Below, piece by piece: positions 31,011 to 34,667 of a stretch of DNA of 64,000 nucleotides (the first letter of the stretch is position 1; every line of letters begins with the position of its first letter). A program made the translations under genes and the position numbers. The stretch is taken from positions 1 to 64,000 of the IMG/VR virus record IMGVR_UViG_3300030098_004420. One strand, given 5' to 3'. Below the pieces are notes generated by a model. That model had not been told where the DNA came from. It worked only from the letters and a program-made list of their open reading frames with translations, and did not search any database. The DNA is from a virus.

Positions 31011-31622
31011 GTGGCAAAGGGTATAGCACAAAGAATAACAATGCAGGATGTCAAGGAGAAACTTGGCAAACTGTCGTTGACGAATCAGTATCAGGTTCAT
31101 TTTTCAACTTTAAGTAAGACAATATCAGATTATCTCAAAAGGAGTAGGGGACTTATTGATATTGATAATTTTTTATCTAGAAATGTTGGAATTTTATGTT
31201 CTGATGCATCTTTACCTGCTAGTGCATTTGCAACGGGGGAAGTAAAGGATAATTTTATGGGTATTCCTCAAGAGTTTGCTCATACTAGATTATATACTGA
31301 TATTGATTTTACTTTTTATGTGGATGAAGATTATAAATCTTTAAGTATTTTTGAAGGATGGATGGATTATATTTCTAGTGGTGCAGATATTGATCCTGAA
31401 GAAAGGGCATTCTATAGAAGATTTAGGTATCCAGATGATTATAAAGTCAATACAATGACTATTACTAAATTTGAAAGAAAGATGAAAAGTAAGTTAATGT
31501 ATGAATTTAAAAATGCTTTTCCTAAATCTATTACATCTTTACCTGTTACTTATGGAGCAGCAGATTTATTAAAAGTTACAGTTAACTTTAACTATGATAG
31601 ATACGTTGTAAATAGAAGTTAA
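31011..31622 (+). CDS. Tail-tube-fold protein (gp19/gp54 type)
   Basis: A 203-residue protein with a GTG start (GTG-GCA, a recurrent start here). It has the order of motifs of contractile-tail tube proteins: YQVHFSTLSK, LCSDASLPASAFATGEVKDN, DIDFTFYVDEDYKSLSIFEGWMDYI, YRRFRYPDDYKVNTMTITKFER, and FPKSITSLPVTYGAADLLKVTVNFNYDRY. Because it sits beside gp48 and gp26 and apart from a sheath gene, the tube initiator gp54 is a likely role, but the main tube protein gp19 cannot be excluded from this window alone. Confidence 0.65.
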   Translation: MAKGIAQRITMQDVKEKLGKLSLTNQYQVHFSTLSKTISDYLKRSRGLIDIDNFLSRNVGILCSDASLPASAFATGEVKDNFMGIPQEFAHTRLYTDIDFTFYVDEDYKSLSIFEGWMDYISSGADIDPEERAFYRRFRYPDDYKVNTMTITKFERKMKSKLMYEFKNAFPKSITSLPVTYGAADLLKVTVNFNYDRYVVNRS

Positions 31623-31663: not shown

Positions 31664-32383
31664 ATGCCATTACCAAAGATTAATACTCCAACTTATGAGT
31701 TGACTTTACCCTCTAATAATAAGAAAATTAAATATCGTCCCTTTCTCGTAAGGGAAGAGAAGATTCTTATTATGGCATTGGAGACTGAAAATAGTGAAGA
31801 TATATCAAATTCTGTTGTAGATATATTGTCTGAATGTATCCTTACAAAAGGAGTAGATGTTACTAAACTTGCTACTTTTGATATTGAATACTTATTCTTG
31901 AATGTTCGTTCAAAATCAGTTGGTGAAACTGTTGAAGTTAATATAGTTTGTCCTGATGATAATAAAACATCAGTTCAAATGGAAATTAATCTTGATAGTA
32001 TTAAAGTTCAAAAAACTAGAGGGCATAAGAATATTATTAAACTTGATGATCAATACTCTTTGAAACTTAAATATCCTTCTCTTGACGAATTTATTGGAAA
32101 TAATTTTGATACTAATGAAAGTAATATGGTTGATAAATCTCTTAATATGATTAGTTCATGTATTGAAATGGTTTATGATGAAGAGGAGAGTTGGGATGCT
32201 TCTGATTCAACTAAAGAAGAATTGGAAGAATTTGTAGAACAATTAAACAGTAAACAGTTTAAAGCAATTGAGAAATTTTTTGAAACAATGCCTAAACTTT
32301 CTCATAAAGTTAAAGTAACAAATCCAACCACTGAGGTGGAATCTGAAGTAGTGTTGGAGGGGTTGGCAAGTTTTTTCACTTAA
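31664..32383 (+). CDS. gp26: gp26-like baseplate hub assembly chaperone
   Basis: A 239-residue protein of the T4 gp26 hub assembly chaperone family: LPKINTPTYELTLPSNNKKIKYRPFLVREEKILIMALE at the N-terminus is diagnostic, with FDIEYLFLNVRSKSVGE and an acidic helical C-terminus. It ends SFFT with a TTTTTTC slippery heptamer three codons before the stop, followed by a strong stem-loop; a -1 shift would fuse it to the next ORF (298 residues in all). It lies just upstream of a tape-measure candidate, the place where other tailed phages keep their frameshifted tail chaperones. Confidence 0.88.
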   Translation: MPLPKINTPTYELTLPSNNKKIKYRPFLVREEKILIMALETENSEDISNSVVDILSECILTKGVDVTKLATFDIEYLFLNVRSKSVGETVEVNIVCPDDNKTSVQMEINLDSIKVQKTRGHKNIIKLDDQYSLKLKYPSLDEFIGNNFDTNESNMVDKSLNMISSCIEMVYDEEESWDASDSTKEELEEFVEQLNSKQFKAIEKFFETMPKLSHKVKVTNPTTEVESEVVLEGLASFFT

Positions 32384-32413
32384 GTATGGCTCATACTAGT
32401 CTTGAGTCATACT
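32371..32413 (+). promoter_or_regulatory. -1 programmed ribosomal frameshift signal in gp26
   Basis: The heptamer T-TTT-TTC (last base of AGT 32370-32371 context; heptamer read as X XXY YYZ over 32371-32377) is in the right frame. After a 5-nt spacer comes an 11-bp stem (32383-32393 with 32403-32413, arms AGTATGGCTCA and TGAGTCATACT, one G-U pair) with a 9-nt loop. After the shift the ribosome reads HLS and then the 57-residue ORF at 32386 in frame. All elements of a canonical signal are present; function is inferred. Confidence 0.75.
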
Positions 32414-32559
32414 ATAAAGTAAATTTTGCCTTGATACAACACCATAAATACTCTTTAACAGAGATAGAAAATATGATTCCTTGGGAAAGGGAAGTGTATG
32501 TGACTTTATTAAAACAGTACATAGATGAAGAAAACCTAAAACAACAAAGTGGCAGTTAA
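32386..32559 (+). CDS. 57-residue ORF, frameshift extension of gp26 (or separate small chaperone)
   Basis: It encodes MAHTSLESYYKVNFALIQHH followed by KYSLTEIENMIPWEREVYVT and LLKQYIDEE. The pattern Y..F.l..h..slteIe.M.pwE...y...L resembles the T part of G/GT-type tail chaperones and small hub-assembly ORFs of T4-like phages. It has an ATG, but this lies inside the frameshift stem-loop and no Shine-Dalgarno precedes it, which favours expression by -1 frameshifting. It overlaps the next gene by 11 bp. Confidence 0.7.
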   Translation: MAHTSLESYYKVNFALIQHHKYSLTEIENMIPWEREVYVTLLKQYIDEENLKQQSGS

Positions 32560-33760
32560 ACCTTTAAAAATAAATACGACTAATATCAAATCTCCTTTTG
32601 GTAGTGGAGGTTCTATACCATCAATTTCTGCTGGTACTAAGTTTAATCTTAAAGCAGTAGAATCACTTAAACCTGTTACTATCGAAAGTCCAACACTTGA
32701 GATGGAACTTGCTGATGATATGGAGGTAGTTAAAAGGGATATTAGTGGAATTAATAATAGTGTTAATAGTCATGGAAAACGTATTAATATGTTATCTGGG
32801 GCAGTATCCACCCTAAATGAACAGTTAGAAGAAACTACTGCAGTAATAAAAGATATTGGAAATGCATTAGCATTAGATTTTGCTAATAGAATTACTGAAC
32901 AGAAAAAAGATAATAAACAATTAAAATCACAGAAAGACTCACTTAAAAAAGAACGTGCTGAAGATAAATTAGAAAGAAAAAAAATAGGAAAAGGTGGAGG
33001 TATAGGATCTAAGTTAGGTGGTGTAGCAAAAGCAGGAACAGGAATTAATTTTGGTGGCATACTAGATGCTGCTAAAATTCTTGGTGTTGGTATTGCTATT
33101 AATGCATTGTGGCCAAAAATAAGTGATATATTTGCGTGGACAATGAACAATCTTGATAAGGTATTATTAGTTGGTGGAGCAATACTTGCACTTAATGTTG
33201 TTGGTGGAATTGGTACTTTACTTTCAATAGGAGCTCTTTTAGCAAATCCTTGGGTGCTTGCTCTTGTTGGATTATTAGGATCTGGAGTTTTAATTAATAA
33301 AATAATTGATAATATTAGAAATAAAGAAATAAATGACAAAAAACTTAAAGAAAACACTAAAAAGAAGATGGAGAAATATGGATTTACTGATGAAAAATTT
33401 GATCTAATACAAACTAACCAGTGGTGGGATTTTCTTGATTGGTTCCCAGATACGTTTAAAGTTAAACCAAAGGAGATGAATAGTGGTGGAATAGTTCCTG
33501 GTTCAGGTAATACTGATAATTTCCCTGCATTATTAACACCTGGTGAAGGTGTTATTGATGCTGATACAATGGCATCAATTTCTCAAAAACCTAGTGGAAT
33601 AAATTTAATTGAAATGGATTTACCTCCAATAAGACTTCCTTCAAAAAAAGAAAAGAAAGTTCCTTTAGGGGAAACAACAAATGTTGTTCCTATTTCTTCT
33701 ATTAATAGAATGAATCTTTATATGACTAAAACCCCAGAATTACATGGAATAATAATATAA
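32549..33760 (+). CDS. Tail tape-measure / hub protein candidate (gp29-like role)
   Basis: A 403-residue protein with a GTG-GCA start. Layout: disordered N-terminus, coiled coil (about 60-150, EQLEETTAVIKDIGNAL then a very charged KKDNKQLKSQKDSLKKERAEDKLERKK), Gly-rich linker, hydrophobic segments (LLVGGAILALNVVGGIGTLLSIGALL; PWVLALVGLLGSGVL) near 210-255, and NSGGIVPGSGNTDNFPALLTPGEGVI, the C-terminal signature of many tape-measure proteins. Position after the chaperone and before gp27/gp5-type hub genes fits. It is short compared with T4 gp29 (590 residues), so the paralogue-like gene behind it may share the role. Confidence 0.65.
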   Translation: MAVKPLKINTTNIKSPFGSGGSIPSISAGTKFNLKAVESLKPVTIESPTLEMELADDMEVVKRDISGINNSVNSHGKRINMLSGAVSTLNEQLEETTAVIKDIGNALALDFANRITEQKKDNKQLKSQKDSLKKERAEDKLERKKIGKGGGIGSKLGGVAKAGTGINFGGILDAAKILGVGIAINALWPKISDIFAWTMNNLDKVLLVGGAILALNVVGGIGTLLSIGALLANPWVLALVGLLGSGVLINKIIDNIRNKEINDKKLKENTKKKMEKYGFTDEKFDLIQTNQWWDFLDWFPDTFKVKPKEMNSGGIVPGSGNTDNFPALLTPGEGVIDADTMASISQKPSGINLIEMDLPPIRLPSKKEKKVPLGETTNVVPISSINRMNLYMTKTPELHGIII

Positions 33761-33764
33761 GATT

Positions 33765-34667
33765 ATGCCATTACCAGCAGTAGCAGTAGGAATAGCGAAA
33801 GTAGGAGCCATTATTAGTAAGGGAGCAATGGTAGCAGGAAAGGGACTTGCTGCTGGTGCAAAGGCTGGTGCAAAGATTGGTTCTTCTGCTGTAAAAACTG
33901 GATCTCGTGCTACAAGTAGTAGTGTAAAAGGTGCTAAGAATTTAAAAATATCAGTAACTAATATTAGAAGTGTTCTTAATAAAAAAACTAAGAGATTGAC
34001 TAATTTAAAAAAGATAAATGTAAGAGATCAGAATAATATATTAAAAGAAGAAAGGAAACGGGTAAAGGAAAAGAAGTTAGAATCTCAAAATAAGAATAAG
34101 AAAAAGAAAATGAAAATGCCAGGACCAATAAAAGGTGCTATTCAGAAAATTGGACAAGTTGGTGGATTATTATTAGCTGGAATTGGGATAAATGTTCTTT
34201 TTGAAATGTTAGATAAAACAAAAAAAGAAGCTGATGATTTGAATATTAAAGTTGATAACAAGTGGGGTTCTAGTGCTTCAAAAAGAAAAGACATGGAAAA
34301 TAAATTAGATAAGATTGATACTAAAAAATTGACACTAGATGCTAAGAAATTTGGTAATATGATGGAGAGAGAGAAATCAAATATACCAGATGTTAAAGAT
34401 CCTAATTCAACTATAACAGTAAAAGATGGTGATGGAACAAGTAAAAAAATGACAGCAAAGCAATTTATGTTTTGGGGAAGAAAAAAAAGTATTGATGATA
34501 ATTCTTCAAATAATAATGTTTCTATAAATTCTGGAGATGATACAAGTTCTACAAATAGTGTTATTCCTTTAGACAAGGATAAGAATCTTAGTAGTTTGTT
34601 AAATAATAATGATAATAAACAAACTGTGATTTTGACAAGACAAGTTGTTGAAGTACCTGTAGATTAG
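33765..34667 (+). CDS. Tail/hub protein related in layout to the tape-measure candidate
   Basis: A 300-residue very basic protein. An Ala/Gly-rich N-terminus (GAIISKGAMVAGKGLAAGAKAGAKIG), a Lys-rich coiled coil (LKEERKRVKEKKLESQNKNKKKK), and one hydrophobic helix (IGQVGGLLLAGIGINVLFEMLDK) that resembles the GVGIAINALW segment of the upstream protein. The C-terminus (NKQTVILTRQVVEVPVD) is a beta-strand ending. It is probably a membrane-penetrating or tape-measure-like partner; no clear T4 homologue is recognised. Confidence 0.55.
   Translation: MPLPAVAVGIAKVGAIISKGAMVAGKGLAAGAKAGAKIGSSAVKTGSRATSSSVKGAKNLKISVTNIRSVLNKKTKRLTNLKKINVRDQNNILKEERKRVKEKKLESQNKNKKKKMKMPGPIKGAIQKIGQVGGLLLAGIGINVLFEMLDKTKKEADDLNIKVDNKWGSSASKRKDMENKLDKIDTKKLTLDAKKFGNMMEREKSNIPDVKDPNSTITVKDGDGTSKKMTAKQFMFWGRKKSIDDNSSNNNVSINSGDDTSSTNSVIPLDKDKNLSSLLNNNDNKQTVILTRQVVEVPVD

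Follow-up and report, generated by a model that had tools for sequence, protein, structure and literature searches.

The window analyzed here, i.e., the whole stretch of 64,000 nucleotides that makes up positions 1-64,000 of the IMG/VR virus record IMGVR_UViG_3300030098_004420 (78,881 bases in all, and possibly a fragment), comes from a marine T4-like phage and holds, at the 3' end of its gp26 gene, a putative site of -1 ribosomal frameshifting that leads into a short open reading frame (ORF) of 57 residues, hereafter ORF57. The gp26 gene (31664..32383, plus strand, as are all features described below) encodes 239 residues and matches PF12322 (E = 2.1e-73, Pfam) and phrog_150 (E = 4.3e-81, PHROG); its product would be the short form, TAC-N, of a tail assembly chaperone (TAC). 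The closing codons of the gene read AGT TTT TTC ACT TAA, with the TAA stop at 32381-32383, and contain the slippery heptamer T-TTT-TTC (32371..32377) in the X-XXY-YYZ phase, three codons before the stop. A 5-nt spacer (ACTTA, 32378-32382) separates the heptamer from a stem-loop (32383..32413) whose arms, 32383-32393 and 32403-32413, form 11 bp including one G-U around a loop of 9 nt (32394-32402). Read after a slip of -1, the sequence continues CAC TTA AGT ATG GCT into ORF57 without a stop, giving a fusion of 298 residues that ends at 32559. This -1 frame extension (32377..32559) carries a domain, TAC-C, that matches phrog_634 (E = 5.5e-28), is covered by a junction-spanning alignment to the C-terminus of T4 gp51 and is annotated in other phages as gp51, the "baseplate hub assembly catalyst". 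Within it, ORF57 (32386..32559) starts with an ATG that some relatives have lost. The heptamer, spacer, stem-loop and fusion had been proposed in a first-pass annotation, and the position and phase of the heptamer, the dimensions of spacer, stem and loop, and the stop-free passage into the 298-residue fusion proved exact when checked against the sequence.

Absent from that annotation was a Shine-Dalgarno (SD)-like GGAGGGG (32356..32362), lying 8 nt upstream of the heptamer, which by its sequence could act as a stimulator. Its Glu codon is GAG in 121 of 135 relatives and ranks 16th of 237 in synonymous conservation. An SD-like element upstream of a slip site resembles the arrangement found in dnaX.

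Conservation of the heptamer and of the reading frame

Close-relative loci were fetched from IMG/VR with gp26 and ORF57 as queries, while a distant set of 62 usable loci, most of them 23-29% identical to phiM9 gp26, came from a scan with phiM9 gp26 and small scans with the gp26 of YB07 and nt-1 (the small scans yielded two loci for YB07, two for nt-1 and none for NVP1255O). The window is AT-rich, and mere occurrences of TTTTTTC in it, 33 vs 25 expected, show no enrichment; the evidence for the heptamer is therefore its phase, position and conservation. It occupies the identical position in 150 of the 151 close loci with a full-length start match, and of 157 close loci 156 place gp51 in the -1 frame relative to gp26, the sole exception being L036, where gp26 is disrupted. 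In L036, L088 and L244 either gp26 or the junction is broken near the 3' end, perhaps through assembly or sequencing errors. Both Phe codons of the slip site are fixed as TTT-TTC in all 135 unique close gp26 genes (a set preselected for the heptamer, which is nonetheless present in all but one of the 151 loci examined); at the other Phe-Phe pairs of the same genes the codons vary, and TTT-TTC is used in 5 of 136.

The pattern extends far beyond the close relatives. Among the distant loci, 61 of 62 combine an in-phase TTTTTT, followed by T, C or G, with a gp51 domain in the -1 frame, as detected with a profile built in this analysis. Annotated isolates with an in-phase heptamer and a -1 gp51 include phiM12, nt-1, pf16, DLP6, Melnitz, S-PM2, OLIVR6, IG49, YB07, AsFcp_1, phiM9, P10VF, RHph_I9, Syn30, P-TIM40 and P-SSM2, and the isolate hosts comprise Synechococcus, Prochlorococcus, Methylophilales, Sinorhizobium, Rhizobium, Pseudomonas, Stenotrophomonas, Vibrio and Aeromonas. 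In the Rhizobium phage RHph_I1_18 a slippery TTTTTTA overlaps TTTAAAC 34 nt before the gp26 stop, and the -1 frame overlap is open for 169 nt. A chance occurrence of the heptamer is ruled out by its phase and conservation.

The stem-loop and the level at which slippage would occur

The folding energy of the stem is -16.0 kcal/mol, whereas shuffled sequences average -8.3 (z = -3.4); for a 43-nt piece z is -4.8. Strong compensatory covariation, sought as proof of the stem, was not found. The stem is mostly invariant, and we used instead a codon-preserving null, in which codons of the -1 frame were replaced synonymously in 115 close relatives. The observed mean fold was -12.8 kcal/mol vs -4.4 in this null (mean z = -4.1; p <= 0.05 in 105 of the 115), and control windows under the same null gave a mean z of -0.5 in gp51 and -0.7 in gp26. 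Paired stem columns match in 83.7% of cells, vs 27-42% when the pairing is slid. Some relatives have different hairpins at this position and about nine have none. The signal does not universally include the stem, which belongs mainly to the cyanophage-type group.

These features also bear on where a slip would happen. In principle the long form could be due not to ribosomal frameshifting but to an RNA polymerase that slips on the T run, which counts 6 T here and 7-8 T in pf16, phiM12 and Melnitz. We regard this origin as extremely improbable: the run in most close relatives is exactly six T followed by C, a run of six is short for transcript slippage, and slippage of the polymerase would require neither the phase of the heptamer nor a strongly selected stem.

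ORF57, the paralogues of T4 and the predicted fold

At the ORF57 start position ATG is kept in 120 of 136 close relatives and is replaced by CTA, CTG or CTC in 16, and at 20 of 204 unique sites no ATG, GTG or TTG occurs within the first 12 post-shift codons, while the frame and the protein sequence continue. At the position of ORF57 the annotation of several public genomes shows no gene. Were ORF57 instead a separate gene, translated by termination at 32381 and reinitiation at the ATG at 32386 with no fusion made, its start would be suitably placed, i.e., 2 nt past the gp26 stop wherever the ATG is kept, or in TAATG or TGATG overlaps elsewhere, and databases do annotate ORF57 as gp51. Such an arrangement is nevertheless very unlikely, as it accounts neither for the relatives and sites in which the start codon is missing with the frame kept nor for the invariant in-phase heptamer, and T4 gp51 has the same domain in one chain with a gp26-like part. 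The loss of start codons likewise speaks against an independent gene for ORF57 as the source of the main product. Judged from these sequences, ORF57 is a C-terminal domain of the T4 gp51 type and not a free-standing gene.

The comparison with T4 clarifies what the two products would be. Both T4 gp26 (208 residues) and T4 gp51 (249 residues) match PF12322, an alignment between the two reaches E = 1.7e-5, and gp51 has a phrog_634 match at its C-terminus. The fusion aligns across the junction with T4 gp51 (E = 6.7e-7) and with gp51 of Aeromonas phage 25 (E = 6e-11), a phage with the T4 gene arrangement. Both forms are thus homologous over the gp26 part, and the long form carries the phrog_634 C-terminal domain. 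Since gp51 equals the fusion in domain content and both T4 proteins belong to the PF12322 family, T4 devotes a gene to each of the two forms, and its gp26 and gp51 are paralogues, one short and one long, matching the TAC-N and TAC-NC (G/GT) of lambda. T4 differs, then, in obtaining the two forms from separate genes and not by frameshifting, whereas the possibly fragmentary record studied here holds one PF12322 gene. The phage phiKT1024 has tandem related genes (1311-1961 and 1964-2653 of its locus), the second ending in an in-frame gp51 domain, and it is possibly a second case, besides the T4 group, in which duplication has replaced the frameshift.

Sequence searches for a homologue of gp26 or of T4 gp51 with a solved structure gave nothing useful, and a model of gp26 was predicted (predicted local distance difference test, pLDDT, 86). 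In VIA-align its residues 1-96 came closest to 3fgx (Z = 7.9), 2ob9, the HK97 tail assembly chaperone (7.8), and 3klu, YqbN (7.1), although a Z below 8 can mean a common arrangement; the next row was 5ir0, from a phage-inducible chromosomal island (PICI)-like element (4.9), and all others scored 4.3 or less. In this comparison the predicted N-terminal domain of gp26 best matches known tail assembly chaperones, that of HK97 included.

The modest Z scores are one of several points that weigh against the frameshift and chaperone reading. A Foldseek search of the gp26 model against PDB returned no significant match (2ob9 at E = 1.6). Compensatory double changes in the stem are few: the one clear case, T-A to G-C, occurs in 4 of 120 sequences. 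Most distant groups have a weak stem or none (mean z = -0.8; of the 57 sequences, a few of them still close relatives, 13 lie below -2). Most relatives keep the ATG of ORF57, so that a separate product may be made. Finally, NVP1255O and Serratia phage 3M (both Ackermannviridae) and Vibrio phage K351 lack a canonical heptamer, with the -1 relation kept. At the junctions of L169, L172 (Ackermannviridae) and L177 (Vibrio K351), CTT-TTT-CGC, GTT-TTC and CTT-TTC stand in place of the heptamer. Conservation in relatives, which had been put forward as the check on the signal, was accordingly borne out for the heptamer in close and distant loci alike, and for the stem in part: it is selected in the close cyanophage-type group, and it is mostly missing in distant groups and shows few compensatory changes.

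Tail assembly chaperones in T4-like phages

Taken together, the heptamer, its phase, the -1 frame, the loss of start codons, the gp51 match and the predicted fold support the earlier suggestion that this is the G/GT equivalent of T4-like phages, and on these sequence-based grounds we consider it highly probable that a -1 frameshift makes the short and long tail assembly chaperone forms of gp26/gp51. Most ribosomes would stop at 32381 and release the 239-residue TAC-N, while a fraction would slip by -1 on U-UUU-UUC and produce the 298-residue TAC-NC ending in the gp51 domain, a slip that the downstream stem, and possibly the upstream SD-like GGAGGGG, may help. By analogy with lambda G/GT (PMC5009743), many copies of the short form would coat the tape measure protein and a few copies of the rare long form would bring in the tail tube subunits.

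The likeness to lambda gpG/gpGT lies in a short form and a rare -1 long form made beside the tape measure gene, and the G-T frameshift has been described as widely conserved "except T4" (2016 review, PMC5009743). The E/E+E' genes of P2 offer another parallel: this contractile-tailed phage has an annotated -1 frameshift, with T-TTT-TTG at the site, directly before the tape measure gene T; gpE differs in having 91 residues. The slippery heptamer of lambda is different from T-TTT-TTC.

The neighborhood agrees with such a role in part. Upstream of gp26 lies a clear tail tube gene (31011..31622; PF23849, E = 1.9e-20; phrog_45, E = 1.5e-44). Downstream, an ORF of 403 residues (32549..33760) overlaps the end of ORF57 and is a tape measure candidate by position, with fast-evolving relatives at the same place in IMG loci. 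It has no match to a tape measure protein family in the PHROG search, and neither it nor the following ORF (33765-34667, 300 residues) has a phage-isolate match at E = 1e-5, where gp26 has 667; family searches likewise gave no conclusive hit for either ORF. The IMG-locus relatives of the ORFs after gp51 are about 25-55% identical, which indicates that this position evolves very fast. In phiM12 and RHph_I1_18 (L168), tape measure PHROGs match a gene one small ORF further down. The rhizobial loci L160, L167, L173, L174, L178 and L182 have an ORF of ~120-145 residues between gp51 and the tape measure candidate. Of the order tail tube, TAC, tape measure, the tail tube side is clear, and the 403-residue ORF is a candidate for the tape measure protein mainly from gene order and its relatives.

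If the T4 annotation were followed, the frameshift product would be a hub-specific baseplate factor and not a chaperone of the tape measure protein. This we find improbable in view of the predicted TAC-like N-terminal fold, the predicted short and long forms, and the gene order of relatives, in which it lies after the tail tube gene and before the one for the tape measure. Since gp29, a component of the T4 hub, determines tail length as well, the hub and chaperone readings may describe one role.

The first-pass annotation had taken a shift at this place in T4-like phages to be undescribed, which was mistaken. Vladimirov, Gautam and Davidson (Virology 2022; 566:9-15) identified the TAC genes of T4-like phages. 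PMC12846349 refers to their paper for slippery sites of poly-T in the TAC-N genes of these phages, and PMC10885494 does so for separate short and fused long genes in some T4-like phages. Those are the same genes as the ones studied here, and with their publication in 2022 the present case becomes a well-supported addition to a published kind. The abstract of the 2022 paper reportedly assigns TAC-N to gene 26 and TAC-NC to gene 51 of T4 and is said to describe frameshifting as kept in several T4-like groups.

The frameshift would also explain an older observation, that cyanophage gp51 lacks its first ~200 residues (Sullivan 2010, PMC3037559): its truncated look is that of the C-terminal part of a frameshift product, and in many database records it is consequently either absent or entered as a protein of its own. 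The same evidence supports the view that T4 gp26 and gp51, which have long passed for hub assembly factors, are what T4 has as lambda G/GT. More hesitantly, and with slightly more doubt than conviction, we suggest that the heptamer is ancestral and near universal in T4-like phages, that the stimulators are lineage-specific, the cyanophage-type phages having added a strong stem and perhaps the SD-like element and other groups relying on UUUUUUU without a stem, and that duplication has replaced the shift more than once, i.e., in the T4 group and in the tandem pair of phiKT1024. If this is true, T4-like phages would represent a natural series in how the ratio of short to long chaperone is set.
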